Assembly (NCBI GenBank): GCA_000161775.1
Contig: GG704596.1
Location: forward strand, 3,022,115 to 3,086,114
Direction of reading: 5' to 3'
Length of the DNA: 64,000 bases
Source: Ruegeria lacuscaerulensis ITI-1157
Lineage (GTDB): Bacteria > Pseudomonadota > Alphaproteobacteria > Rhodobacterales > Rhodobacteraceae
Below the pieces are notes generated by a model that made no database searches, had not been told where the DNA came from, and worked only from the letters and a program-made list of their open reading frames with translations. The translations under genes were made by a program, and so were the position numbers. Positions 311 through 14,953 of this stretch are shown here, in pieces. Positions within the stretch are counted from its first letter, which is position 1, and every line of letters begins with the position of its first letter.

Positions 311-1183
311 ATGCCCGACTTCCTGACCACGCGCGAACTGGCCGACCTGCTGCGCATCGGCGAGCGCAAGGCCTATGATCTTGCCGCATCCGGCGAGGTG
401 CCCTGCGTACGGGCCATGGGCAAGCTGCTGTTTCCTCGGGCCGAGGTGCTGGCCTGGTTGAATGCGTCGCGCTCGGGTCCGCAAACGGCCGAGCCGCCGC
501 TGCCCCCGATCGTCGCCGGCAGCCACGATCCGCTGCTGGACTGGGCGTTGCGCGAAAGCGGATCGGGGCTGGCCACCTATTATGACGGATCGTTCGACGG
601 GCTGCGGCGGCTGGCCGAGCGCGCGGCGCAGGCCGCGGTTCTGCATATTCACGAACCCGGCGGGTTCAACACCGGCGCGCTGCGCGACACGCTGGGCGAA
701 GCGCCCGTGGTTCTGGTCCAGATCACCCATCGCCAGCGCGGCCTGCTGCTGGCCCCGAACACGCAAGGCATCGGCGGGTTTGCCGACCTTAAGGGCCGCC
801 GTGTTCTGCTGCGACAGGACAGCGCCGCCAGCCAACATCTGTTCGACCGGCAACTGGCCGAACACGGCCTGAGCCGCGATGACCTGAACACCCTGCCCAA
901 TTGCGCCCGCACCGAAGAAGAGCTGGCCATCGCCCTGCACGACGGCAAGGCCGAGGCCGGGTTCGGGCTGGGGGCGCTGGCCCGTCTCTATGGGCTGGGC
1001 TTCGTGCCAACCCATTCCGAACGACTGGATCTGGCGATCTGGCGTCGGGCGTATTTCGAACCGCCCTTGCAAAAGCTGCTGTCCTTTCTGCGCTCGGACG
1101 GGTTTGCCGCCCGCGCGGCCGAGATGGGCGGCTATGACCTGACCGATCTGGGCGCGATCCACCACAACGGCGCCAGCGGCTGA
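311..1183 (+). CDS. HTH regulator with PBP-like sensor domain (probable tungstate/molybdate regulator)
   Basis: The protein has 290 residues. Residues 1-52 (MPDFLTTRELADLLRIGERK at the start) form an excisionase/MerR-like helix-turn-helix. Residues from about 70 to 275 resemble the substrate-binding-protein-like domain (PBP_like family) found in one-component regulators of oxyanion uptake, with segments such as GLATYYDGSFDGLRRL and LLLAPNTQGIGGFADLKGRR. The gene is convergent with tupA, with only 6 bases between their stops, so it probably senses tungstate or molybdate and controls the tup operon. That role is inferred from architecture and location. No signal peptide is visible, consistent with a cytoplasmic DNA-binding protein. 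Confidence 0.75.
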   Translation: MPDFLTTRELADLLRIGERKAYDLAASGEVPCVRAMGKLLFPRAEVLAWLNASRSGPQTAEPPLPPIVAGSHDPLLDWALRESGSGLATYYDGSFDGLRRLAERAAQAAVLHIHEPGGFNTGALRDTLGEAPVVLVQITHRQRGLLLAPNTQGIGGFADLKGRRVLLRQDSAASQHLFDRQLAEHGLSRDDLNTLPNCARTEEELAIALHDGKAEAGFGLGALARLYGLGFVPTHSERLDLAIWRRAYFEPPLQKLLSFLRSDGFAARAAEMGGYDLTDLGAIHHNGASG

Positions 1184-1189
1184 GGCTGG

Positions 1190-2005
1190 TCACCTGGCGT
1201 TGGGAAAGAACAGCTGTTCCCCTTCCAACCGGTAGGACGCGATGGCCGCCTGACCATCCGGTCCGGTGAGCCAGTCGATGAACCTCTGGCCCGCTGCCGC
1301 ACGAACGCCGGGATGTTTTTCGGGGTTCACGAGGATCACGCCATATTGGTTGAACAGACGCGGATCGCCCTCGACCAGAACCGCAAGGTCGCCCTTGTTG
1401 GCAAAGGCCAGCCATGTCGCCCGGTCAGTCAGCGCATAGGCCCCCATCCCCGCCGCCAGGTTCAGCGTGGCGCCCATGCCCGAGCCAGTCTCGCGGTACC
1501 AGGTGCCCGAGGCGGCGGTCGGGTCGATGCCGGCGTTTTGCCACAGGCGCATCTCGGCCTGATGCGTGCCGCTGTCATCCGCGCGCGAGGCGAAGGTCGC
1601 CCCGACATTCGCGATGGCGGTCAGGGCCGCGGCGGCATCGGTCATTCCCTTGATGTGCGCCCGGTCGGACCTGGGCCCGACGATGACGAAATCGTTGTAC
1701 ATCACGTCGCGCCGCTCGATGCCCCAGCCCTCGGCCACGAACGCCTCCTCGGCCGGTTTGGCATGCACCAGCAGAACGTCGCCATCGCCGTTCCTGGCAT
1801 TGCGGATCGCCTGCCCCGTTCCCACGGCCACCACGCGCACTTCGATTCCGGTTTCGGCCTCGAACCCCGGCAGGATGAACTCCAGCAGGCCCGAGTTCTG
1901 CGTCGAGGTCGTGGATTGCACGATGATGAACGCCTCCTCGGCCGCCGCCGGGTTGGCGACGATTCCGAACAGGACCAGGGCGCTTGTGAATACTGCGCGA
2001 AACAT
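1190..2005 (-). CDS. tupA: Tungstate-type ABC transporter substrate-binding protein
   Basis: Periplasmic solute-binding protein of 271 residues. The ATG at 2005 is chosen because GGAGG precedes it at good spacing and a clean signal peptide follows (cleavage after about residue 22, NPAAA-EE); the longer frame to 2071 adds unrelated residues. The mature protein begins with the TTSTQNSGLLEFILPGFEAE segment typical of the TupA/WtpA-like oxyanion binders. VGTGQAIRNARNGDGDVLLV and MYNDFVIVGP are further family-like stretches. It is the last gene of a permease-ATPase-binding protein operon. Tungstate is the usual TupA ligand; molybdate cannot be excluded from sequence alone. Confidence 0.85.
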   Translation of the reverse strand: MFRAVFTSALVLFGIVANPAAAEEAFIIVQSTTSTQNSGLLEFILPGFEAETGIEVRVVAVGTGQAIRNARNGDGDVLLVHAKPAEEAFVAEGWGIERRDVMYNDFVIVGPRSDRAHIKGMTDAAAALTAIANVGATFASRADDSGTHQAEMRLWQNAGIDPTAASGTWYRETGSGMGATLNLAAGMGAYALTDRATWLAFANKGDLAVLVEGDPRLFNQYGVILVNPEKHPGVRAAAGQRFIDWLTGPDGQAAIASYRLEGEQLFFPNAR

Positions 2006-2025
2006 GGATTGCCTCCGATTTTTTG

Positions 2026-2760
2026 TTATGTGACCAGCCAGCCTGCCAGATACTGGCGCGAGGCCTGGCATTTCGGCGCCTCAAGCACCTGTCTGGCGGT
2101 GCCGTGTTCGACGACGCGCCCGCCTTGCATCATCACGATGTCCGCCGCCAGACGCCGGGCCTGCCCGACGTCGTGCGTGACCATCACGATCCGCACCCCG
2201 CGGGCCGACGCGCGCAGGATCATCGCCTCGATCGCCTGCGTGGCGGTGGGGTCCAGCGCGCTGGTGGGTTCGTCCAGAAACAGCGTCTCGGGGTCCAGCG
2301 CCAGCGCGCGCAGGATGGCCAGGCGCTGCGCCTCGCCGCCCGACAGAGACCGCGCCGATTGCCGGGCCTTGCCGTCCAGCCCACCTTCGGCCAGCAGGTC
2401 GGCAATCCGCGCCTTGCGCGCAGCACGGCCCAGCCGCTTGCGTTTCAAAACGAAATCCAGATTGGCCGCCACCGACCGGCGCAGCAGCACCGGCTGCTGA
2501 AACACCATGGCCTGCCGGGCCTTGTGATCGGCGGTCAGGTCCAGACCATCCTGCAGGACCCGCCCCCTGTCGGCCTGGATCAGCCCATGCAGACAGCGCA
2601 ATAGCAGGCTTTTGCCCGCGCCATTGGGCCCCAGGATCAGCGTCGGCCCCGGCCCGTCCAGCGACAGCCGGGGAACATCCAGCAGGACCCGCCCCTTGCG
2701 TTCGATGGCAAGGTCCGAAATTTCCAGCCGGCTCGGCATGTCGGGCATCAGGTCACGCAT
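2026..2760 (-). CDS. tupC: Tungstate-type ABC transporter ATP-binding protein
   Basis: ABC ATPase of 244 residues with Walker A GPNGAGKS (44-51), signature LSGGEAQR (139-146) and Walker B TLFLDEP (about 159-165) followed by the D-loop SALD. It overlaps the permease gene by a few bases at its 5' end and is followed after 20 bases by tupA, so the order is tupB-tupC-tupA on the minus strand. An alternative start at the Met of MPDMPSR would remove five residues. It would energise oxyanion import through TupB at the inner membrane. Confidence 0.85.
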   Translation of the reverse strand: MRDLMPDMPSRLEISDLAIERKGRVLLDVPRLSLDGPGPTLILGPNGAGKSLLLRCLHGLIQADRGRVLQDGLDLTADHKARQAMVFQQPVLLRRSVAANLDFVLKRKRLGRAARKARIADLLAEGGLDGKARQSARSLSGGEAQRLAILRALALDPETLFLDEPTSALDPTATQAIEAMILRASARGVRIVMVTHDVGQARRLAADIVMMQGGRVVEHGTARQVLEAPKCQASRQYLAGWLVT

Positions 2761-3466
2761 GGCGCAGCCCCTCCTGCTCGGCCCGCAGGGTCAGGGCGCT
2801 GACCATGGCATTCACGGCCACTGCAATCCCGATCAGGATCGCACCAAGCGCCAGCGCCAGGGCCAGATTGCCCTTCGAGGTCTCGAGCGCGATCGTCGTC
2901 GTCATCACACGGGTCACGTGATTGATGTTGCCACCCACGATGATCACCGCACCGACCTCGGCAATCGCTCGACCGAACCCGGCCAGCAGCGCGGTGACCA
3001 GCGCCAGCCGCGCGTCCCACAACAGGGTCGGCACCGACGCCAGCCGCGACACGCCCAGCGAGCGGAGCTGTTCCGAATACTCCTCGGCCAGCAACTCCAC
3101 CACCTGCCGCGTCAGCGCCGCGATGATCGGCGTGACCAGCACGGTCTGGGCAATGATCATGGCGGTCGGCGTGTACAAAAGCTCGAGCACGCCGAGCGGG
3201 CCGGACCGTGACAGCATCAGATAGACCAGCAGACCGACGACGACGGGCGGAAACCCCATCAGCGCGTTCATCAGGATGATCAGCGCCCGTCGCCCGGGAA
3301 ACCGCGCCACGGCCAGAGCGGCCCCGACCGGCATCCCGATCACGGCCGAAATCAGCACCGCACAGACCGACACCTGCAGCGACAAGACCACGATCGCCCA
3401 CAGGTCGGGGTCTCCTGTCAGGACAAGCTGCGTCGCGCGACTGAATTCTGATGCAAAATTTTGCAC
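2753..3466 (-). CDS. tupB: Tungstate-type ABC transporter permease
   Basis: Integral membrane protein of 237 residues with about five hydrophobic helices. The binding-protein-dependent transport signature lies in the region around EQLRSLGVSRLASVPTLLWD and AIAEVGAVIIVGGNINHVTR. The start is a GTG at 3466, preceded by GGAGAAA; no upstream ATG is in frame. The first four codons after GTG coincide with a perfect palindrome (TGCAAAATTTTGCA). First gene of the tup operon. It should form the channel subunit together with TupC and TupA. Confidence 0.85.
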   Translation of the reverse strand: MQNFASEFSRATQLVLTGDPDLWAIVVLSLQVSVCAVLISAVIGMPVGAALAVARFPGRRALIILMNALMGFPPVVVGLLVYLMLSRSGPLGVLELLYTPTAMIIAQTVLVTPIIAALTRQVVELLAEEYSEQLRSLGVSRLASVPTLLWDARLALVTALLAGFGRAIAEVGAVIIVGGNINHVTRVMTTTIALETSKGNLALALALGAILIGIAVAVNAMVSALTLRAEQEGLRHA

Positions 3467-3619: not shown

Positions 3620-4609
3620 TCAGTTCAGAGCCGCATCCGTGATCTGGTGGGTCCAGGCACCTTCGGGCTTTTTGGTGATCACCGGATCCGAGCCGCCGGC
3701 CAGAAGCGTGTTCACCGTGCGTTCGAAATCGGCCGGGTCCAGCGCCCCGTTCGAGCCCGCGGTCAGCTTGGCGATCTCGCGCATCATGCGCTTCTGGTGT
3801 TCCTCGGTCTGGGCACCGGTCGCATCGTTCTCCAGCACGATTTCGGCGGCCTCGTCCGGGTTCTCCTCGGCGTATTTCCAGCCCTTCATCGAGGCGCGCA
3901 CGAAGCGGACCATCTTGTCGACGAAGGCCGGGTCACTGAGGTTTTCTTCAAGCACGTAAAGGCCATCTTCCAGCGTGGCTACGCCCTGATCTTCATACTT
4001 GAAGGTCACCAGTTCGTCGGGGCTGACGCCGGCATCGATCACCTGCCAGTATTCATTGTAGGTCATGGTGCTGATGCAATCGGCTTGGCGCTGCAGCAGC
4101 GGGTCGACGTTGAAGCCCTGCTTCAGAACCTCGACGCCGTTCTCGCTCTTGCCGCTGGTGTCGATGCCCAGCTGGCTCATCCAGCTCATGAACGGGAATT
4201 CATTGCCGAAGAACCAGACGCCCAGCGTGCGGTTTTTCAGATCTTCAGGCGAGGAAATGCCCGCGTCCTTCCAGCAGGTCAGCATCATGCCCGAGCGTTT
4301 GAATGGCTGCGCGATGTTGACCAGCGGCAGGCCTTTTTCGCGCGCGGCCAGCGCGGCGGGCATCCATTCGACGGTCACATCGGCGCCTCCGCCCGCGATC
4401 ACCTGCGTGGGCGCGATGTCGGGGCCGCCGGGCAGGATGGTGACGTCCAGCCCCTCTTCTTCGTAGAACCCCTTGTCCTTGGCGACGTAGTAGCCCGCGA
4501 ACTGGGCCTGGGTGACCCATTTCAATTGCAGCGTCACCTCGTCCGCCGCAAAGGCCGTTCCGGCCGTCATGGCAAGGGCCGTGATTGCCCCGCTGATCAA
4601 CTTTTTCAT
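3620..4609 (-). CDS. NMT1/ThiY-type ABC transporter substrate-binding protein (probable pyrimidine-related ligand)
   Basis: About 329 residues. The start at 4609 is preferred over the ATG two codons upstream (4615) because AGGAG then has proper spacing. A signal peptide of about 20 residues ends AGTAFA-AD. The mature N-terminus (VTLQLKWVTQAQFAGYYVAK) is the NMT1/THI5-like fold used by ThiY and related pyrimidine or sulfonate binders. It is the last gene of an operon that starts with pyrimidine-degrading enzymes, so a pyrimidine, dihydropyrimidine or hydantoin ligand is inferred. A thiamine-precursor ligand such as HMP is the main alternative. Confidence 0.8.
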   Translation of the reverse strand: MKKLISGAITALAMTAGTAFAADEVTLQLKWVTQAQFAGYYVAKDKGFYEEEGLDVTILPGGPDIAPTQVIAGGGADVTVEWMPAALAAREKGLPLVNIAQPFKRSGMMLTCWKDAGISSPEDLKNRTLGVWFFGNEFPFMSWMSQLGIDTSGKSENGVEVLKQGFNVDPLLQRQADCISTMTYNEYWQVIDAGVSPDELVTFKYEDQGVATLEDGLYVLEENLSDPAFVDKMVRFVRASMKGWKYAEENPDEAAEIVLENDATGAQTEEHQKRMMREIAKLTAGSNGALDPADFERTVNTLLAGGSDPVITKKPEGAWTHQITDAALN

Positions 4610-4662
4610 CTTCATTTCTCCTAGTTGTTGTTGCGCCCCGTTATCGGGGTCTTTTGAATGAT

Positions 4663-5508
4663 TTATCCCCGCTGCGAGGGGTGCCAGAACGTGACCATTT
4701 TCTCGATCATGGCGACCAGACCGTAAAACGCGGTTCCGGCCAGCGCCGCGACCACGATTTCCGCCCAGACCATGTCCAGCGACAATTGCCCGACACTGGT
4801 CGAAATCCGGAACCCCATGCCCAAAGTGGGCGAGCCGAAGAATTCTGCCACGATAGCGCCGATCAGGGCCAGCGTGGTGGAAATTTTCAACCCGTTGAAA
4901 ATGAACGGCATGGCCGCAGGCAGCCGCAGCTTCAGAAAGCTTTGCCAATAGGTTGCGGCATAGGTCTCCATCAGGTCGCGCTGCATGGCGGTGGCCTCGC
5001 GCAGGCCGGCCACCGTGTTCACCAGCATCGGGAAAAAGACCATCACCACGACCACGGCCGCCTTCGAATGCCAGTCGAAACCGAACCACATCACCAGGAT
5101 CGGCGCGGTGCCCACGATCGGCAGCGCGGCCACGAAATTGCCCACCGGCAGCAGGCCCAGCCGCAGGAAGTCCCACCGGTCCACGGCGATTGCCATCAGG
5201 AAAGCGGCGCCGCATCCGATGACATAGCCGCTGAGCGCGCCCTTGATGATGGTCTGCACAAAATCGGCCCACAGGATCGGCAGGCTGTCCCAGAACCGGT
5301 CCCAGATCACCGAAGGCGCGGGCAGGATGACCAGAGGCACCTCGAGCCCGCGAACGAGCAATTCCCACACCCCGATGACGGTCAGGCCGAAGATCAGCGG
5401 CGCAAGAATGCGCACCGCCCGCGTGTCGGCATAAGGTCCGCTGGCCAAGCGGGAGTTCAGCCACCAACCGGCCAGCCACAAAAGGATTGCAAGACCGACC
5501 ATCATCAT
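4663..5508 (-). CDS. ABC transporter permease (pyrimidine locus)
   Basis: Inner-membrane protein of 281 residues and about six helices, of the SsuC/ThiX-like permease family. The EAA loop region is near YAATYWQSFLKLRLPAAMPF. Its start overlaps the stop of the preceding permease gene by 4 bases (ATGA), so translation is probably coupled. Three Met codons open the frame and the exact one used is uncertain. Together with the permease at 5505-6422 it would form a heterodimeric channel, whereas many members of the family are homodimers. Confidence 0.85.
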   Translation of the reverse strand: MMMVGLAILLWLAGWWLNSRLASGPYADTRAVRILAPLIFGLTVIGVWELLVRGLEVPLVILPAPSVIWDRFWDSLPILWADFVQTIIKGALSGYVIGCGAAFLMAIAVDRWDFLRLGLLPVGNFVAALPIVGTAPILVMWFGFDWHSKAAVVVVMVFFPMLVNTVAGLREATAMQRDLMETYAATYWQSFLKLRLPAAMPFIFNGLKISTTLALIGAIVAEFFGSPTLGMGFRISTSVGQLSLDMVWAEIVVAALAGTAFYGLVAMIEKMVTFWHPSQRG

Positions 5509-6422
5509 TGCGCCATCCCCATGCGTTTCAACACCGCGCGTTCGACCAGGCCCAACAGGCCCACCAGGCAGGCCGCCAGAATGGCCGCGGCAAACAGCGC
5601 CGACCAGATCTGCACCGTCTGGCCATAATAGCTGCCGGCCAGCAGCCGTGCGCCCAGCCCCGCCACGGCGCCGGTCGGCAATTCGCCGACGATGGCCCCC
5701 ACCAGTGACGCGGCGATCCCGATCTTGAGCGAGGCGAACAAATAGGGCATCGAGGCCGGCAGGCGCAGTTTCCAGAACACCTGGCTGTTGCTGGCATTGT
5801 AGGTGCGCAGCAGGTCCAGCTGCATCGCGTCAGGGCTGCGCAGGCCCTTGACCATGCCCACGACCACCGGGAAGAAACTCAGATAGGCCGAGATCACCGC
5901 CTTGGGGATGATCCCCTGAATGCCGATCGAATACAGCACCACGATGATCATCGGCGCCAGCGCGATGATGGGGATGGTCTGGCTGACGATGGCCCAGGGC
6001 ATGACCGACAGGTCCATCACCCGGCTATGCACGATCCCCACTGCCAGCAGGATGCCCAGCCCCGTGCCGATGGCAAAGCCCAGGATCGTCGCGCTGAGCG
6101 TCACCCAGCCGTGATAGACCAATGACCGTTTCGAGGTGATCTTCTTCTGAACCGTGGTCTCCCACAGCTCGATCGCGACCTGATGCGGCGCGGGCAGACG
6201 CGGCCGGTCCTGTGCCCAGGTCGCCGGAATGGCAAAGCTGTTGCGCAGCGCCAGACCGATTTCCCCCATGTCGCGGCGGTCTTTGGCCGAGGGCGGAACC
6301 ACTTCGGCCCCGGCCCGTTCCTGTTCGGTCAGAACGCCCTTGATGTTCATCGGAATGCAGGCCGCGTACCAGATGACGACGATGGCCAGCAGAACGGTCA
6401 GAACGGCAACAAGCTGCTTCAT
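5505..6422 (-). CDS. ABC transporter permease (pyrimidine locus)
   Basis: Start at 6422 (MKQLVAVLTVLLAIVVIWYA), where the ATG overlaps the TGA of the GNAT gene. The longer open frame only adds out-of-family residues. About 305 residues: one N-terminal anchor, a periplasmic loop containing the stretch TSKRSLVYHGWVTLSATILG, then the usual permease core with its EAA segment (about YNASNSQVFWKLRLPASMPY). It is paralogous to the downstream permease. Part of the RutR-controlled operon by position. Confidence 0.85.
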   Translation of the reverse strand: MKQLVAVLTVLLAIVVIWYAACIPMNIKGVLTEQERAGAEVVPPSAKDRRDMGEIGLALRNSFAIPATWAQDRPRLPAPHQVAIELWETTVQKKITSKRSLVYHGWVTLSATILGFAIGTGLGILLAVGIVHSRVMDLSVMPWAIVSQTIPIIALAPMIIVVLYSIGIQGIIPKAVISAYLSFFPVVVGMVKGLRSPDAMQLDLLRTYNASNSQVFWKLRLPASMPYLFASLKIGIAASLVGAIVGELPTGAVAGLGARLLAGSYYGQTVQIWSALFAAAILAACLVGLLGLVERAVLKRMGMAQ

Positions 6423-6850
6423 GCGTGCCACTCCATCCGCACCACGGGGACGGTCTCGGGCGGCGTTGCGGCCTCGGTCCCGGTTACGACAAAACCCTCG
6501 CGGCGATAGAACCGTTGCGCGGCGGCATTCGGTTGATGGGCCGTCAGCCACAGAAAGCTGCGCCCCTGTTTTGCCCGATCCAGCAGGCGCTTGCCGATGC
6601 GCTGCCCGGTTCGCAGGCAATACAGCGCGCCGACCTTCTGCGCCGCGGGATCAACCGACATGTAGCAATCGACGGGTTCGCCCACGACCCACATCTCGCG
6701 GTCCGGGAAGGCCTGCGCGATCAGAGCCTCCAACTCCTGCTGGGGCAGTTCATCCGTCATCCACTCGGTCTGGCGGACCCAAGAGGAAACCACCGCCGCG
6801 CAGGCCGGCACATCCGCCGCGGTCGCGCGTCTGATGTCATCCCCGCCCAT
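6419..6850 (-). CDS. GNAT family N-acetyltransferase inside the pyrimidine transporter operon
   Basis: A 143-residue single-domain acetyltransferase. The start at 6850 overlaps the ATPase stop by one base (TGATG), and its own stop overlaps the permease start (ATGA), so it is coupled on both sides. The acetyl-CoA loop region is about RTGQRIGKRLLDRAKQ, followed by HQPNAAAQRFYRREGFVVTG, the classic C-terminal GNAT motif. The substrate is unknown. Because the operon produces beta-alanine and handles pyrimidines, an amine or amino acid from that pathway is possible, but this is inference from position only. Confidence 0.8.
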   Translation of the reverse strand: MGGDDIRRATAADVPACAAVVSSWVRQTEWMTDELPQQELEALIAQAFPDREMWVVGEPVDCYMSVDPAAQKVGALYCLRTGQRIGKRLLDRAKQGRSFLWLTAHQPNAAAQRFYRREGFVVTGTEAATPPETVPVVRMEWHA

Positions 6851-7647
6851 CACACATCGTCCCCGTGCCCGGCGCGCAGCCCTTCGCGCACGCGGTGCGC
6901 GACCTCGATGAATTCGGGCGTGTCGCGGATATCCAGCGGCCGTTCCTTGGGCAGAGGGCTGTCGATCACATCGGTGATCCGCCCGGGGCGCGGGCTCATC
7001 ACGACGATCTTGGTGCTCAGATACACCGCCTCGGGGATCGAGTGGGTGACGAAGCCGATCGTCTTGCCGGTGCGCGCCCACAGAGCCAGAAGCTGTTCGT
7101 TCAAGTGATCGCGCACGATCTCGTCCAGTGCGCCGAAAGGCTCGTCCATCAACAGGATATCGGCGTCAAAGGCCAGCGCCCGGGCGATGCTGGCCCGTTG
7201 CTGCATCCCACCCGACAGCTGCCAAGGGAATTTTTCACCAAACCCTGCAAGATCAACAAGTTCCAGAACGTTTCTCGCACGTTCTTCCTGCTCCTGCGCC
7301 GAGTATCCCATGATCTCGAGCGGCAGCTTGATGTTCTTGGCGATGGTCCGCCACGGGTACAGGCCCGCCGCCTGGAACACATAGCCATAGGCCCGGTTCC
7401 GGCGGGCCTCGTCCGGGGTCATTCCGTTGACGGACAGCGTGCCGCCCGTAGGTGTTTCCAGCGCAGCGACACAGCGCAGAAAGGTGGTTTTGCCGCAGCC
7501 CGAAGGGCCGATGAAACTGACGAATTCGCCTTTGTCGATGGCCAGGTTCACGTCCTTGAGGGCGTGAACGGGTCCGTCATTGGTTTGGAAGGTCAGGTCG
7601 AGGTTCTTTGCCTCGATCACGGGCTGGGTATCGCTTTCAGATGTCAT
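6850..7647 (-). CDS. ABC transporter ATP-binding protein (pyrimidine locus)
   Basis: ABC ATPase of the SsuB/TauB/ThiZ class, about 265 residues from the Met of MTSESDTQ. A start 12 codons upstream (7683) also has a plausible ribosome binding site (GAAGG). Walker A is GPSGCGKT, the signature LSGGMQQR and Walker B ILLMDEPFGALD. The C-terminal part (VIDSPLPKERPLDIRDTPEF) is typical of this class. It lies 51 bases after the hydA stop and leads the transporter cistrons. Confidence 0.88.
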   Translation of the reverse strand: MTSESDTQPVIEAKNLDLTFQTNDGPVHALKDVNLAIDKGEFVSFIGPSGCGKTTFLRCVAALETPTGGTLSVNGMTPDEARRNRAYGYVFQAAGLYPWRTIAKNIKLPLEIMGYSAQEQEERARNVLELVDLAGFGEKFPWQLSGGMQQRASIARALAFDADILLMDEPFGALDEIVRDHLNEQLLALWARTGKTIGFVTHSIPEAVYLSTKIVVMSPRPGRITDVIDSPLPKERPLDIRDTPEFIEVAHRVREGLRAGHGDDV

Positions 7648-7698
7648 CCTACTGCCTTGAAGTTTTGGCTTTTTTGCCCGCATTGCAACCTTCGCGCA

Positions 7699-9153
7699 TC
7701 ACACCCCCGTCGCCGGGATGCCCGACCGCTCTATCGGGCGCGGAGCGGTCAGCTCTTTCCAGGTGCTCAGCGCCTTGTTCACGGTGGTGTTGGCCTCGCG
7801 CGCGACGAATTTGCCGTGGCCTTCCTGCGTTCGGATCTCGCCATCGTGCACCGCGACCTGTCCACGGGTCAGGGTAAAGCGCGGCAGGCCCTTGACCTCG
7901 TGCCCCTCGAAGACGTTGTAGTCGATCGCCGACTGCTGCGTCGCCGCGCTGATGGTCTTGGTCTTGTCCGGGTCCCACACCACCAGATCGGCATCTGCGC
8001 CCACCAGAACGGCGCCCTTTTTCGGATAGCAATTCAATATCTTGGCGATGTTTGTTGACGTCACGGCCACGAATTCGTTCGGCGTCAGCCGCCCGGTCGC
8101 GACGCCGTGGGTCCACAGCATCGGCATCCGATCCTCAAGACCGCCCGTCCCGTTCGGAATCTTGGTGAAATCGCCCACGCCGAACCGCTTCTGCTCGGTC
8201 GTGAAGGCGCAGTGATCGGTGGCCACCACACTCAGCGAGCCCGACTGAAGCCCCGCCCACAGGCTGTCCTGATGTTGCTTGTTGCGGAACGGCGGGCTCA
8301 TCACCCGGCGCGCGGCGTGGTCCCAATCGGGATGCGCATATTCGCTATCGTCCAGCGTCAGGTGCTGGATCAGCGGCTCGCCCCAGACGCGCTTGCCCTG
8401 CATCCGGGCCCGGCGGATGGCCTCATGCGCCTCTTCGCACGAGGTGTGCACCACATAGAGCGGCACCCCGGCCATGTCGGCGATCATGATGGCGCGGTTG
8501 GTGGCCTCGCCCTCGACCTGCGGCGGGCGCGAATAGGCATGGGCCTCGGGGCCGGTATTGCCTTCGGCCAGCAGCTTGGCCTGCAACTCGGCCACCACGT
8601 CACCGTTCTCGGCATGGACCATCGCGATTCCGCCCAGCTCGGCCAGCCGCTTGAACGAGGCAAACAGCTCGTCGTCATTGACCATCAGGGCGCCTTTGTA
8701 GGCCATGAAATGCTTGAACGTGTTGATGCCCCGCTGCTCGATCACGGTTTTCAGATCGTCGAACACCTGTTCGCCCCACCACGTCACGGCCATGTGGAAG
8801 GAGTAGTCGCAATTGGCGCGGGTCGATTTGTTGTCCCAGCGTTTGAGCGCATCCAGCAGGCTTTCGCCCGGGTTCGGCAGCGCGAAATCCACCACCATGG
8901 TCGTGCCGCCGGCCAGCGCCGCGCGGGTGCCGCTTTCGAAGTCATCGCTGGAATAGGTTCCCATGAACGGCATTTCCAGATGCGTGTGCGGGTCGATCCC
9001 GCCGGGCATGACGTAGCAGCCGGTCGCGTCCAGTTGCTCGTCCCCTTTCAGATCCGGCCCGATCTCGGTGATCACGCCGCCCTCGATCAGCACATCCGCC
9101 TTGTACGTCAGGTCGGCGGTCACGATGGTTCCGTTCTTGATGACTGTGCTCAT
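7699..9153 (-). CDS. hydA: Dihydropyrimidinase
   Basis: Cyclic amidohydrolase of 484 residues that opens dihydrouracil and dihydrothymine to N-carbamoyl-beta-amino acids, the second step of reductive pyrimidine catabolism. The binuclear metal centre is complete: H56 and H58 (DPHTHLE), the carbamylated K153 (FMAYKG), H180 (VHAEN), H236 (HTSC) and D313 (ATDH). The start at 9153 has GGGAG at 6-nt spacing; the TTG two codons earlier lacks this. It sits between the amidohydrolase gene and the ABC transporter, in the RutR-controlled operon. Hydantoinase activity is a common side activity of the family. Confidence 0.95.
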   Translation of the reverse strand: MSTVIKNGTIVTADLTYKADVLIEGGVITEIGPDLKGDEQLDATGCYVMPGGIDPHTHLEMPFMGTYSSDDFESGTRAALAGGTTMVVDFALPNPGESLLDALKRWDNKSTRANCDYSFHMAVTWWGEQVFDDLKTVIEQRGINTFKHFMAYKGALMVNDDELFASFKRLAELGGIAMVHAENGDVVAELQAKLLAEGNTGPEAHAYSRPPQVEGEATNRAIMIADMAGVPLYVVHTSCEEAHEAIRRARMQGKRVWGEPLIQHLTLDDSEYAHPDWDHAARRVMSPPFRNKQHQDSLWAGLQSGSLSVVATDHCAFTTEQKRFGVGDFTKIPNGTGGLEDRMPMLWTHGVATGRLTPNEFVAVTSTNIAKILNCYPKKGAVLVGADADLVVWDPDKTKTISAATQQSAIDYNVFEGHEVKGLPRFTLTRGQVAVHDGEIRTQEGHGKFVAREANTTVNKALSTWKELTAPRPIERSGIPATGV

Positions 9154-9225: not shown

Positions 9226-10476
9226 CTATTCCACGATCTCGGCGGTTTCGACGACCGCGTGAAACAGAACGTCCGCCCCGGCGGTTGCCCATTCCTTGCT
9301 GATTTCCTCGGCCTCGTTATGGCTCAGGCCATCCACGCAGGGGCACATCACCATCGCGGTCGGCGCCACGCGGTTGATCCAGCAGGCATCGTGCCCCGCG
9401 CCCGAGATGATGTTGGTGTGCGAATAGCCCAGCCGCTCGGCCGCGTTGCGCACGGCGGCGACGCAGGTTTCGTCGAATTTCACCGGGTCGAACCCGCCGA
9501 CCTTCTCGAACTCGACCTGCAGGCCCATCTCATCCACGATGTCCTCGGCGGCGACGCGCAGACGGTTTTCCATGTCCTGGATCACCTCCAACTCGGGCGA
9601 GCGGAAATCGACCGTGAACACCACCTTGCCCGGGATCACGTTGCGCGAGTTCGGATAGACGTCGATATGCCCAGCAGCCCCCACGGCATGGGGCGCGTGC
9701 GACCAGGCGATCTCGTCCACTTTTTCAAGAATGCGCGCCATCGCCAGCCCGGCGTTCTTGCGCATCGGCATCGGGGTCGAGCCGGTATGCGCGTCCTTGC
9801 CGGTCACGGTCACCTGGGTCCAGCTGAGGCCCTGCCCATGGGTGACGACGCCAATATCCTTGCCCTCGGCCTCGAGGATCGGGCCCTGTTCGATATGCAG
9901 CTCAAAGAACGCATGCATCTTGCGGGCCCCGACCTCTTCGTCGCCGCGCCAGCCGATGCGTTGCAGCTCGTCGCCGAATTTCTTGCCCTCGGCATCTTCG
10001 CGCGCGTAAGCCCAATCCTGCGTGTGCATGCCTGCAAAAACGCCCGAGGCCAGCATGGCCGGGGCGAAGCGCGTGCCCTCCTCATTTGTCCAGTTGGTGG
10101 CCACGATCGGGTGTTTGGTCTTGATGCCCAGATCGTTCAGGGTGCGGATGATCTCGAGCGCGCCCAGAACCCCCAGCACCCCGTCATACTTGCCGCCGGT
10201 CGGCTGCGTATCGAGGTGCGAGCCGACATAGACCGGCAGCGCATCGGGGTCGGTACCCGGGCGCATGGCGAACATGTTGCCCATCTGGTCAAGGCCCATG
10301 GTGCACCCGGCATCTTCGCACCATTTCTGGAACAGCGCGCGGCCCTCGGCATCTTCGTCGGTCAGGGTCTGGCGGTTGTTGCCGCCGGCAACGCCCGGGC
10401 CGATCTTGGCCATCTCCATCAGACTGTCCCACAACCTGTCGCCGTTGATCCTGAGATTCTGCGCCGGAGCTGCCAT
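9226..10476 (-). CDS. Zn-dependent N-carbamoyl-beta-alanine amidohydrolase (beta-ureidopropionase type)
   Basis: M20/HyuC-AllC family hydrolase of 416 residues. Metal ligands are visible: H87 (GSHLDT), D98 (KYDG), E132/E133 (NEEG), H194 (ELHIEQG) and the C-terminal His of GLSHNEAE. The start at 10476 (MAAPAQN) is preceded by AGGGAAG; the longer frame to 10533 would run into the RutR operator. The family includes allantoate and L-carbamoyl amidohydrolases, but adjacency to hydA, preT and preA points to N-carbamoyl-beta-alanine as substrate, giving beta-alanine, CO2 and ammonia. First gene of the minus-strand catabolic operon. Confidence 0.9.
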   Translation of the reverse strand: MAAPAQNLRINGDRLWDSLMEMAKIGPGVAGGNNRQTLTDEDAEGRALFQKWCEDAGCTMGLDQMGNMFAMRPGTDPDALPVYVGSHLDTQPTGGKYDGVLGVLGALEIIRTLNDLGIKTKHPIVATNWTNEEGTRFAPAMLASGVFAGMHTQDWAYAREDAEGKKFGDELQRIGWRGDEEVGARKMHAFFELHIEQGPILEAEGKDIGVVTHGQGLSWTQVTVTGKDAHTGSTPMPMRKNAGLAMARILEKVDEIAWSHAPHAVGAAGHIDVYPNSRNVIPGKVVFTVDFRSPELEVIQDMENRLRVAAEDIVDEMGLQVEFEKVGGFDPVKFDETCVAAVRNAAERLGYSHTNIISGAGHDACWINRVAPTAMVMCPCVDGLSHNEAEEISKEWATAGADVLFHAVVETAEIVE

Positions 10477-10525: not shown

Positions 10526-10541
10526 TTGACCATCTGGTCAA
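10526..10541. promoter_or_regulatory. RutR operator (perfect palindrome)
   Basis: TTGACCA-TC-TGGTCAA is identical in both arms to the known E. coli RutR recognition site (TTGACCA-N2-TGGTCAA). It lies in the 171-bp gap between the divergent regulator gene (start 10648) and the amidohydrolase gene (start 10476), about 50 bp upstream of the latter, where it can control one or both promoters. Confidence 0.85.
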
Positions 10542-10647
10542 ACTCACGCTATCACGGGTTCGACATCAGTCAAGAAATTGCATCGCACCGATGCAGAAAT
10601 CGGCATATTCAACACCTGCTTGTTCGAAAAAGAGACGTTCTGCATAC

Positions 10648-11256
10648 ATGCCCAAAGACCGCGCCCCGACCCGAATTCAGAAAAAGAACCGCGCCGCGAT
10701 TCTCGAGGCCGCGCTGAACGTGTTTTCGGCCCACGGCTTTCGCGGGGCGACCGTCGATCAGATCGCGGCCGAGGCCGGGCTGAGCAAGCCGAACCTTCTG
10801 TATTATTTCCCGTCCAAAGAGGCGATCCACACCGCGCTTCTGTCCGGCCTGCTGGATACCTGGCTGGCGCCGCTGCACGATCTTGACGAAAACGGCGAGC
10901 CGATGGAGGAGATCCTCTCGTACATCAAGCGCAAGCTGCAGATGAGCCGCGAGTTGCCGCGTGAAAGCCGCCTGTTCGCGAATGAACTGGTGCAGGGCGC
11001 GCCCCGCATCCATGACGCCCTGTCGAACGATCTGAAGGCGCTGGTCGATCAGAAGGCGGCCGTTCTGACGCACTGGATGAACCAGGGCAAAATCGCCCGC
11101 CTGCACCCGCATCACCTGATCTTTTCGATCTGGGCGCTGACCCAGCATTATGCGGATTTCGAAGTTCAGGTGCGCGCGATCCTGGACGACGAAGACCCGT
11201 TCGAGGGGGCTGCGCCCTTCATCGACACCCTGTACCGCAAATTGCTGACCCCATGA
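10648..11256 (+). CDS. rutR: RutR-type TetR family regulator of pyrimidine catabolism
   Basis: TetR regulator of 202 residues. The HTH covers about residues 35-57 (GATVDQIAAEAGLSKPNLLY) and is followed by FPSKEAI. The ligand domain carries RutR-like blocks (SRLFANELVQGAP, HHLIFSIWALTQHYADFEVQ). E. coli RutR is released from DNA by uracil or thymine, and a perfect RutR site lies upstream of this gene. The start at 10648 (MPKDRAPTRI) matches the family N-terminus better than the upstream in-frame Met. Divergent from the hydrolase operon and convergent with preA. Confidence 0.9.
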   Translation: MPKDRAPTRIQKKNRAAILEAALNVFSAHGFRGATVDQIAAEAGLSKPNLLYYFPSKEAIHTALLSGLLDTWLAPLHDLDENGEPMEEILSYIKRKLQMSRELPRESRLFANELVQGAPRIHDALSNDLKALVDQKAAVLTHWMNQGKIARLHPHHLIFSIWALTQHYADFEVQVRAILDDEDPFEGAAPFIDTLYRKLLTP

Positions 11257-11300: not shown

Positions 11301-12605
11301 TCACTCGGCGGCCTTGGCCATCGGGTTGTTCGGGTGGGTCGTCCAATTGGCATAATCCGGCTGTACCACCTTGCCAGTGCGCGGATCGACCTCGCCCGCC
11401 GCCATCGGCACCATCGAGATGCAGCCCTCGACCGGGCAGACATCCACGCACAGGTTGCAGGCCACGCATTCCTCGTCGATCACCTCGAACACGCGGTCGG
11501 GCGACATCGAAATGGCCTGATGGCTGGTGTCCTCGCAAGCCGCATAGCAGCGGCCGCACTTGATGCACTGATCCTGATCGATCTTGGCCTTGGCGACGTA
11601 ATTCAGGTTCAGATACTGCCAGTCGGTCACGTTCGGGACGGCCCGCCCGACGATTTCCGGGACGTTGGAATATCCCTTTTCGTCCATCCACTGCGACAGG
11701 CCCGCCGTCAGTTCGTCGATGATCTTGAAGCCATAGGTCATCGCCGCAGTGCACACCTGCACCGTGCCACAGCCCAGCGCCATGAATTCGGCCGCGTCGC
11801 GCCATGTGGTCACCCCGCCGATGCCCGAGATTGGCAGACCTTGGGTCGCCTCGGCGCGGGCGATCTCGGAGACCATCGACAGGGCGATCGGCTTGACCGC
11901 CGGGCCGCAATAACCACCATGGCTGCCCTTGCCGTCGATCGAGGGCTCGGGGCTGAACGTGTCCAGATTGACGCTGGTGATCGAGTTGATCGTGTTGATC
12001 AGCGACACCGCATCGGCCCCGCCATTCCGCGCCGCAGCCGCCGGCTTGCGAATGTCGGTGATGTTGGGCGTCAGCTTCACGATCACCGGGCGGTCATAGT
12101 ATTTCTTGCACCAGCGGGTGACCATTTCGATGTAATCGGGCACCTGCCCCACGGCCGAACCCATGCCGCGCTCGCTCATCCCGTGCGGGCAGCCGAAGTT
12201 CAGCTCGATCCCGTCGGCGCCGGTTTCGGCCACGCGCGGCAGGATGGCTTTCCAGGCCTCCTCCTCGCACGGCACCATGATCGAGGCGATCAGGGCGCGG
12301 TCCGGGTAATCCGCCTTGACGCGGGCCATCTCCTCGAGGTTCACCTCGAGCGGCCGGTCGGTGATCAGTTCGATGTTGTTGAGGCCCACCAGACGCCGGT
12401 CGGCCCCGTAGATCGCCCCGTACCGGGGGCCGTTCACGTTGACCACCGGCGGCCCTTCGGACCCCAGCGTTTTCCACACGACGCCACCCCATCCGGCCTC
12501 GAAGGCGCGGCGGACGTTGTATTCCTTGTCGGTCGGCGGCGCCGAGGCCAGCCAATAGGGGTTGGGGCTTTCGATGCCCAGAAAGTTCGTTTTCAAATCA
12601 GCCAT
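11301..12605 (-). CDS. preA: NAD-dependent dihydropyrimidine dehydrogenase subunit PreA
   Basis: 434 residues. Residues 1 to about 300 form a dihydroorotate-dehydrogenase-like FMN barrel (IELNFGCPHGMSERGMGSAV; CGTVQVCTAAM). Two [4Fe-4S] ferredoxin motifs follow: C347, C350, C353, C357 and C380, C383, C386, C390. With PreT it catalyses NADH-dependent reduction of uracil and thymine, the first step of the reductive pathway. GGGAGG precedes the ATG at 8-nt spacing. It lies 69 bp downstream of preT in the same orientation, with a palindrome in the gap. Confidence 0.95.
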   Translation of the reverse strand: MADLKTNFLGIESPNPYWLASAPPTDKEYNVRRAFEAGWGGVVWKTLGSEGPPVVNVNGPRYGAIYGADRRLVGLNNIELITDRPLEVNLEEMARVKADYPDRALIASIMVPCEEEAWKAILPRVAETGADGIELNFGCPHGMSERGMGSAVGQVPDYIEMVTRWCKKYYDRPVIVKLTPNITDIRKPAAAARNGGADAVSLINTINSITSVNLDTFSPEPSIDGKGSHGGYCGPAVKPIALSMVSEIARAEATQGLPISGIGGVTTWRDAAEFMALGCGTVQVCTAAMTYGFKIIDELTAGLSQWMDEKGYSNVPEIVGRAVPNVTDWQYLNLNYVAKAKIDQDQCIKCGRCYAACEDTSHQAISMSPDRVFEVIDEECVACNLCVDVCPVEGCISMVPMAAGEVDPRTGKVVQPDYANWTTHPNNPMAKAAE

Positions 12606-12674: not shown

Positions 12675-14009
12675 TCAGGCGCTCAGGCTGGCGTGAATGT
12701 CCATCGCGGCATCGCGGCCCTCGGCCACGGCGGTCACGGTCAGATCTTCTCCACCCGCAGCACAGTCTCCGCCGGCCCAGACCCCCGGAACCGAGGTGCG
12801 CCCGGTTGCGTCAACGGCGATCTTGTTGCCGTCCAGCGCCAGCCCCTCGGGCGCGCCGTTCAGCGTCTGGCCGATGGCCTTCAGCACCTGATCCGCAGGC
12901 AGGCGAATGGTTTCGCCGGTGCCGGTCAGCTTGCCGTCCACGGTGGCAGTATACTCCAATTCGATCTCGGCCGCTGCCCCGTTGCCGTGAATGGCGACGG
13001 GCTGGACGTTGCACAGGATGCACACCCCTTTCGATGCCGCCAGATCCTGCTCGTATTTACTGGCGCTCATCGCCGCGCGCCCGCGCCGATAGGCGATGGT
13101 CACCTTTTCGGCGCCCAGCAGCTTGCACTTGACCGCGGCATCTACGGCCGTCATCCCGCCGCCGATCACCACCACGTTCCGACCGACCGGAACCTGCGCC
13201 AGATCGTCGGCCTGCCGGACCTCGGCGATGAAATCGACCGCGTCGCGCACGCCCGGCAGGTCTTCGCCCTGGGCCCGCAGCGCGTTCACACCGGTCAGAC
13301 CGATCGACAGGAACACCGCGTCATAGTCGTTGCGCAGACTGTCCAGCGTGACCGTCCGGCCCAGCGCCTCGCCGGTTCGGATGGTGATGCCGCCGATCTT
13401 CAGCAGCCAGTCCACCTCGGCCTGGGCAAAGTCATTGGTCGCCTTGTAGGCGGCGATCCCGTATTCGTTCAGCCCGCCGGGTTTGGGCTTGGCCTCAAAG
13501 ATCACCACGTCATGGCCCAGCATCGCCAGCCGATGCGCACAGGCCAGCCCCGCCGGCCCTGCCCCGATCACGGCCACGGTCTTGCCGGTGGGGGCCGCGC
13601 GCGTGAACGGATGCACACCAGCCTGCATCAGTGTGTCGGTCGCGTACCGCTGCAAGCGCCCGATCTCGACCGGCTTGCCTTCGGCCGTTTCGCGCACGCA
13701 GGCTTCCTCGCACAGCGTTTCGGTCGGGCACACACGGGCGCACATGCCGCCCAGGATGTTCTGATCGAAAATCGTCTTCGCCGCCGATTCCGGTTGCCCG
13801 GCCTGAATCTGCCGGATGAACAGCGGAATATCGATGTCGGTCGGACAGGCCGTCACGCACGGCGCGTCATAGCAGAAATAACACCGATCGGCGGCCACGG
13901 CGGCCTCGTGCGGCGCCAGAGGCGGATGCAGATCGGTGAAATTCGAGGTCAGCTCATCGCTGGAAAGCCGCCCGGCGACGATGCCGGGTGCCATCTGGCC
14001 CTGTGCCAT
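12675..14009 (-). CDS. preT: NAD-dependent dihydropyrimidine dehydrogenase subunit PreT
   Basis: 444 residues from the ATG at 14009, which has GGGAG at 7-nt spacing. The N-terminal glutamate-synthase-small-subunit-like domain carries two Fe-S motifs (C43, C46, C51, C55 and C90, C94, C100, C104). FAD- and NAD-binding domains follow, with dinucleotide motifs VAVIGAGPAGLACA near 147-160 and VVVIGGGMTAVDAAVK, and the C-terminal GVWAGGDCAAGGEDLTVTAV that closes the FAD site. It passes electrons from NADH to PreA. The longer open frame towards 14099 overlaps the operator region and is not used. Confidence 0.95.
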   Translation of the reverse strand: MAQGQMAPGIVAGRLSSDELTSNFTDLHPPLAPHEAAVAADRCYFCYDAPCVTACPTDIDIPLFIRQIQAGQPESAAKTIFDQNILGGMCARVCPTETLCEEACVRETAEGKPVEIGRLQRYATDTLMQAGVHPFTRAAPTGKTVAVIGAGPAGLACAHRLAMLGHDVVIFEAKPKPGGLNEYGIAAYKATNDFAQAEVDWLLKIGGITIRTGEALGRTVTLDSLRNDYDAVFLSIGLTGVNALRAQGEDLPGVRDAVDFIAEVRQADDLAQVPVGRNVVVIGGGMTAVDAAVKCKLLGAEKVTIAYRRGRAAMSASKYEQDLAASKGVCILCNVQPVAIHGNGAAAEIELEYTATVDGKLTGTGETIRLPADQVLKAIGQTLNGAPEGLALDGNKIAVDATGRTSVPGVWAGGDCAAGGEDLTVTAVAEGRDAAMDIHASLSA

Positions 14010-14064
14010 CACTCTACTCCCTGTAGATATGTTTGTTATTGAGACCAGCTTGCCACAAACAAAA

Positions 14065-14099
14065 ATTTTATCAATTGGTAAAATTTGCCAAATGGTCAA
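14065..14099. promoter_or_regulatory. Degenerate RutR-like operators upstream of preT
   Basis: TTTGCCA-AA-TGGTCAA (14084-14099) keeps one perfect RutR half-site and five of seven bases of the other. ATTTTATCAATTGGTAAAAT (14065-14084) is an 18-of-20 palindrome abutting it, with the same CCA/TGG spacing in a weaker form. Both lie 55-90 bp upstream of preT, so RutR probably also controls preTA. Confidence 0.6.
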
Positions 14100-14106
14100 A
14101 AAAGCG

Positions 14107-14132
14107 AAAACCGGGCCGAATGACCCGGTTTT
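14107..14132 (-). terminator. Terminator after the cupin gene
   Basis: Perfect 9-bp stem AAAACCGGG / CCCGGTTTT with an 8-nt loop, 37 bases beyond the cupin stop at 14170. It insulates the preT promoter from upstream transcription. The T-run on the plus strand makes it potentially bidirectional. Confidence 0.75.
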
Positions 14133-14169: not shown

Positions 14170-14802
14170 TCAGACCATGCCGGACAGGTGGCCTGACTTC
14201 ATCCAGACGCGGGCGCCATCCGGTCCTGCCCGCAATTCAGTGCGCGTTCCGGGCGGCAGCCGCAGCCAGTCCCATCGCGCGAATTCCTCGCCTTGTTCGG
14301 TGAAGCCACCGTCGATCACGAAGACCTCGGCCCCGCCGGGTGCGTCAATCGGTATGACCTGACCGGGCGGCCAACTGCGCATTTCGACCGTTTCATGGTC
14401 GTCTTTGAACAGCGGCACGTGGTCCGCACCGTTGATCGAGCGGCGCACGGTGGTGCGGTCGTTTGGGTCGAATTGGTGCAGTTTGACCAGGATCGTCGCG
14501 CCCTGGCTGGCCGATGGCGTATGCGACGAGGTCGGCGGGTTGCGGACATAGCTGCCCACCGGGAAATCTCCGGTCTCGTCCTGGAACACGCCGTCCAGAA
14601 CCAGGTATTCCTCGCCCCCGTCATGGGTGTGTGCGGCAAACGCGCTCCCGGGGGCAAAGCGCACGATGGTGGTGGCGCGCGCCACCTCGTCGCCGATCCG
14701 GTCCAGCATCTTGCGCTCGACCCCGGCGGCGGGAGACGCCACCCACTCGGTCTGGTCGAAGTGAACCGCCACCCGCTGGGTGAAATCCGCATTGATCCGC
14801 AT
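14170..14802 (-). CDS. ChrR-like double cupin protein
   Basis: About 210 residues. The first cupin has the metal-binding pattern HTHDGGEEYLVLDGVFQDE and then HTPSASQG, as in the cupin domain of ChrR-family anti-sigma factors; the second half (EVFVIDGGFTEQGEEFARWD) is a second cupin repeat. The N-terminal zinc-binding anti-sigma domain of true ChrR is absent and no ECF sigma gene is adjacent, so an anti-sigma role is not supported. The start at 14802 has AGGAG before it. Likely a cytoplasmic metalloprotein related to oxidative or aldehyde stress, by family only. Confidence 0.75.
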   Translation of the reverse strand: MRINADFTQRVAVHFDQTEWVASPAAGVERKMLDRIGDEVARATTIVRFAPGSAFAAHTHDGGEEYLVLDGVFQDETGDFPVGSYVRNPPTSSHTPSASQGATILVKLHQFDPNDRTTVRRSINGADHVPLFKDDHETVEMRSWPPGQVIPIDAPGGAEVFVIDGGFTEQGEEFARWDWLRLPPGTRTELRAGPDGARVWMKSGHLSGMV

Positions 14803-14953
14803 GTCGCGCTCCTGTCTGGTCTCCTCCATCAACATGGGCGCGCCGGGCCCGATTTCAAACACGCGGCGTCAACGGTTTTGACGCAGGCTCAGCGATGCTG
14901 TAGGTCGAAACCAACGGCAAGGGGCGGGCAAAGGCCCCGAACGGAAGGCGCAG

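Follow-up and report, generated by a model that had tools for sequence, protein, structure and literature searches.

A predicted RutR/PydR-type uracil switch beside the reductive pyrimidine catabolism genes of Ruegeria lacuscaerulensis ITI-1157

The window, a stretch of 64,000 nucleotides from contig GG704596.1 of Ruegeria lacuscaerulensis ITI-1157 that was analyzed as a whole, carries the genes of a reductive (Pyd) pathway of pyrimidine breakdown, a divergently placed gene for a RutR-like regulator, and two sites resembling RutR operators. We considered that these elements form a local, self-regulating switch of uracil catabolism, in which the repressor would occupy both operators and uracil would release it; judged from sequence, this reading has a probability of about 0.88. 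The arrangement read in the window is correct, well conserved, and largely known in kind.

Genes of the cluster and the divergent regulator

The structural genes of the pathway all lie on the minus strand. The two subunits of dihydropyrimidine dehydrogenase are encoded by preT (12675–14009; PF14691 and PF07992) and, directly downstream of it, preA (11301–12605; NF006183, 720 bits against a cut-off of 335). The product of hyuC (9226–10476), a beta-ureidopropionase (N-carbamoyl-beta-alanine amidohydrolase; NF006769), had among its best matches the N-carbamoyl-beta-alanine amidohydrolase of PDB 8c46 (E=3e-202), and hydA (7699–9153) encodes a dihydropyrimidinase (TIGR02033, 611.9 bits, cut-off 393). 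Genes for preT, preA, dihydropyrimidinase, and beta-ureidopropionase thus occur together, the combination that marks a Pyd cluster, and the same cluster was found in relatives. In a profile search of the whole genome, no rutA exceeded the cut-off (best score 46.9 bits versus 498). The original prediction, which had the palindrome facing the reductive pathway and not the Rut pathway, therefore agreed with the gene content.

The minus strand also carries genes for a probable pyrimidine importer: an ABC transporter ATPase (6850–7683), whose top matches were ABC import ATPases and whose gene order is kept in relatives, two permeases (5505–6437 and 4663–5508; PF00528 in both), and an NMT1/THI5-like substrate-binding protein (3620–4615; PF09084, 141.4 bits) that matched PDB 3ix1, a pyrimidine-precursor binding protein. 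The region at 311–3466 was read by eye from the list of open reading frames; it holds minus-strand ABC transporter genes (1190–3466) with the look of a tungstate-type importer, adjoined by a helix-turn-helix binding-protein-like gene (311–1183).

The gene at 10648–11256 on the plus strand encodes a protein of 202 amino acids, predicted to be a RutR/PydR-type TetR repressor from its PF08362, TIGR03613, and PDB matches and its conserved residues. Membership of the TetR_C_3/RutR-YcdC family (PF08362) was clear, with 163.5 bits against a Pfam gathering score of 25, and the top PDB matches were E. coli RutR structures (3loc/6z1b). The protein scored below both NCBI cut-offs for the RutR equivalog (231.8 of 368 bits for TIGR03613 and 207.6 of 230 bits for NF011584); it is RutR-like and lies outside NCBI's strict RutR definition. 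The nearest named locus belongs to Ruegeria intermedia, where the regulator is 98% identical.

Alignment with E. coli RutR gave 46% identity over 201 positions. The two proteins (PDB 3loc, 4jyk, and 6z1b for E. coli) share the family, the palindrome, and the residues contacting uracil and DNA, and in both cases the gene is placed divergently beside its own operon. The uracil contacts and two DNA-contact lysines of E. coli RutR have been described (PMC10891134). All five uracil-contact residues, W77, Y97, W167, Q171, and Q179, are identical in the window regulator, and these five together with K52/K62 were kept in 39/39 alphaproteobacterial Pyd-linked proteins, the window's own included. Because the uracil-contact and DNA-contact residues are identical, uracil is the likely inducer.

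A second RutR-like gene was observed nearby at four loci (L059, L060, L080, and L086), with the recognition helix PKANLHYYF in place of SKPNLLYYF and the uracil-contact residues intact; it may be one of a pair of repressors, with an operator of its own. At three Pyd-linked loci of other lineages (L137, L139, and L142), upstream CTGTCC-N4-GGACAG palindromes replace the TTGACC-type sites and the helix is of the PKANLHYYF type, a candidate specificity switch.

Operators and predicted promoters

Operator 1, TTGACCATCTGGTCAA, occupies 10526–10541, has no strand, and lies in the intergenic region from which the rutR-like gene and hyuC diverge, exactly where and as the 16-mer palindrome had been noted. 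Whole-genome operator searches were carried out by pattern matching with the reversed pattern as control. Apart from operator 1, no exact copy of TTGACCANNTGGTCAA was found in the window or in the rest of the 3.52-Mb genome, for which base composition predicts about 0.005 exact copies. Sites with at most three mismatches to TTGACCANNTGGTCAA numbered 12 in the window against 1.6 expected, a count that none of 100 shuffles reached. The site had been described as matching both arms of the E. coli RutR site. This likeness stands, except that operator 1 comes closer to a full palindrome than the two E. coli sites examined: the rutR/rutA operator of E. coli, TTGACCGTTTAGTCCA, has three mismatches to TTGACCANNTGGTCAA and the carAB operator, TTGACCATTTGGTCCA, has one, versus none for operator 1.

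A lack of conservation in relatives had been named in advance as grounds for abandoning the prediction; both the palindrome and the gene order proved to be kept. The 30 same-genus loci, of which the window's is one, all carry operator 1 without a mismatch, within a nearly invariant stretch of the intergenic region, and it occurred with zero or one mismatch in 77/80 named relatives (exact in 61, one mismatch in 16). Across 51 Pyd-linked loci, a site with at most two mismatches was located upstream of the regulator in 40, where shuffles predict 0.1.

Operator 2, TTTACCAATTGATAAA, is found on the minus strand at 14067–14082, upstream of preTA. The original operator reading was accurate for operator 1 and overlooked this site before preT. 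It places an operator in front of the dihydropyrimidine dehydrogenase genes, the position that characterizes PydR-type control. The strict degenerate motif TTKAYCANNTGRTMAA had two matches genome-wide, operators 1 and 2, both in the pyrimidine cluster, and its reversed control had none. Operator 2 was recovered upstream of preT in 67/70 named relatives. It is adjoined by a candidate accessory site, TTGACCATTTGGCAAA (14084–14099, minus strand), which has two mismatches and a center 17 bp from that of operator 2; its left arm is kept in nearby genera only, and its right arm is degenerate. A wider regulon was considered and set aside, since sites with at most two mismatches numbered 36 in the genome versus 32 for the reversed control, so that no expansion is visible.

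Two further palindromes near operator 1 were considered and rejected. An unstranded one-mismatch look-alike at 10277–10292, inside hyuC, was evaluated as a looping operator; it was a perfect palindrome in 0/30 same-genus loci, where it drifts to TGGACCAGATGGGCAA or is lost, and it is probably a by-product of Leu-Asp-Gln-Met-Gly codons in hyuC. Between operator 1 and rutR, 10579–10595 forms a perfect 7-bp inverted repeat, TGCATCG-CAC-CGATGCA. In the nearest relative, the arms of this repeat are the same and the center carries one change (TGCATCGCGCCGATGCA); as an NtrC-like site, TGCATCGCACCGATGCA was rejected, being missing from the other 28 same-genus loci.

Promoters were predicted from sequence reading and cross-genus conservation; a stricter consensus scan returned no sigma-70 promoter at operator 1. 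The promoter predicted for the hyuC-hydA-transporter operon, TTGACT-16-TAGCGT (10546–10573, minus strand), recurs in its layout across genera and stops four bases short of operator 1, so transcription would start inside the operator. For rutR, the putative promoter (10526–10555, plus strand) would consist of a TTGACC inside operator 1, an 18-bp spacer, and TATCAC, and this stretch is invariant in the 30 same-genus loci. The predicted preT promoter (14047–14074, minus strand) would combine TTGATA inside operator 2, a 16-bp spacer, and CAAGCT, and was drawn from hexamer conservation in relatives; a -10 hexamer with A at position 2 and T at position 6 was spaced at 16 in 21/30 loci and at 17 in 9/30. 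Between the minus-strand gene at 14170–14862 and preT, a terminator-like hairpin with a T run was observed on the minus strand (14107–14132).

Proposed mechanism and alternative explanations

In the proposed switch, a dimer of the TetR protein encoded at 10648–11256 would bind operator 1 and operator 2. Operator 1 would overlap the predicted start of the hyuC-hydA-transporter unit and, with its left arm, the -35 element of rutR itself, and operator 2 would overlap the -35 element of preTA. Since the operators overlap the predicted promoters, bound repressor would block all three units, and the uracil-free protein would thus silence both divergent promoters and that of preTA. Uracil, whether taken up through the neighboring ABC transporter or formed by the cell itself, would enter the ligand pocket, upon which the repressor would leave the DNA and all three units would be expressed. 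The enzymes would then reduce uracil to dihydrouracil and hydrolyze this to beta-alanine, CO2, and ammonia. In E. coli, RutR activates carAB indirectly. This precedent admits a sign of regulation other than repression, and the sign may differ here.

The evidence on the operators bears on two other explanations. The motif is short, and the one-mismatch copy inside hyuC illustrates that coding sequence is able to mimic it, so operator 1 could be a chance or unrelated sequence resembling the E. coli consensus; however, the expected genome-wide frequency of such a palindrome, its invariance across the genus, and its location in relatives beside the gene of its regulator make this extremely improbable, and a chance origin is strongly disfavored by conservation. 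Operator 2 is imperfect, with three mismatches to TTGACCANNTGGTCAA and an asymmetric right arm, TGATAAA, as would be the case if 14067–14082 were no RutR site and operator 1 governed rutR and the hyuC operon only, leaving preTA under other control. We regard this as quite improbable: operator 2 is the only other strict-motif match in the genome and is kept in nearly all of the relatives examined, and its asymmetry coincides with the predicted -35 element, the presence of TTGATA in that arm being what would explain the departure from the palindrome.

The identity of the inducer was weighed in the same way. Pathway intermediates such as dihydrouracil or N-carbamoyl-beta-alanine would make sensible inducers for a regulator whose client pathway differs from Rut, and the title of an earlier E. 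coli report, as cited in PMC10891134 and PMC6245113, names thymine too as a ligand. Any of these in the place of uracil is nevertheless unlikely, as the window regulator has every uracil-contacting residue of E. coli RutR and later work identified uracil, not thymine, as the relevant ligand in E. coli (PMC6245113). Release of E. coli RutR by uracil has been reported (PMC10891134, PMC6245113), and release of the window regulator by uracil is the reading we prefer.

Rut and Pyd linkage among relatives

Rut genes were rare in the surroundings of this regulator. The linkage to rutABCDEFG that goes with the RutR equivalog was absent, with rutA at 0/80 named relative loci, while the neighbors at these loci included hyuC in 80 and preA in 71. 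RutA exceeded its cut-off in 3/198 family genomes and PreA in 165/198; with RutA homologues in so few genomes, the idea that rut replaces pyd under the same repressor in close relatives was rejected. Neither rutB/rutC neighbors nor a RutR operator was found at the three loci with RutA homologues (L229, L231, and L232). One family member (L230, genome G102) has kept the regulator, an operator-like site, hyuC, hydA, and the transporter in a genome without preA, possibly for the use of dihydropyrimidines only.

E. coli RutR targets rutABCDEFG and carAB, whereas the window regulator faces Pyd genes, and the rut operator is the less perfect of the two. Conservation of regulator and operator with a chemistry other than Rut, as originally proposed, was upheld by the RutR-type family, the kept palindrome, and the Pyd genes. 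The element of surprise attached to a pathway that is "not Rut" is smaller: control of Pyd genes stands, but Pyd linkage is the commoner one among the loci sampled, and a RutR-like repressor of the reductive pathway, PydR of Pseudomonas putida, was published in 2012 by Hidese et al. (J Biochem 152:341-346; cited in PMC7332683). PydR belongs to another lineage than Ruegeria, and the branch of the window protein also holds E. coli RutR. In the work of Leyn et al. (2016; PMC5343134), RutR regulons for pyrimidine catabolism were reconstructed in 68 genomes from 13 proteobacterial groups, with taxon-specific changes of the motif; the window system would share RutR-type control of pyrimidine catabolism with those regulons and with the RegPrecise ones.

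In a tree of 105 relatives, a single change separates the Rut-linked from the Pyd-linked proteins. The window protein fell in a branch of 33 rows, 32 of them Pyd-linked, and Pyd-linked proteins of other lineages formed a separate branch. With the tree rooted at its midpoint, both halves contain Pyd-linked members, and control of Rut may therefore be derived; Pyd links also outnumber rut links among the sampled loci, from which the assignment of RutR to Rut in E. coli may likewise be derived. We tentatively suggest, with less than even confidence, that the RutR lineage first governed Pyd and that, in E. coli and related bacteria, Rut came under RutR through a single takeover. As the tree was a quick build, its root set at the midpoint instead of being inferred, and the relatives had been collected by searching with the window protein, this derived status of Rut is treated as a hypothesis.

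The comparison presents a sensor and operator that stay fixed while the enzymes differ, two unrelated chemistries of uracil breakdown being attached to one input module. Ruegeria is a marine genus with strains in culture, in which the two defined operators and the predicted promoters could be used directly to test uracil-controlled nitrogen scavenging.
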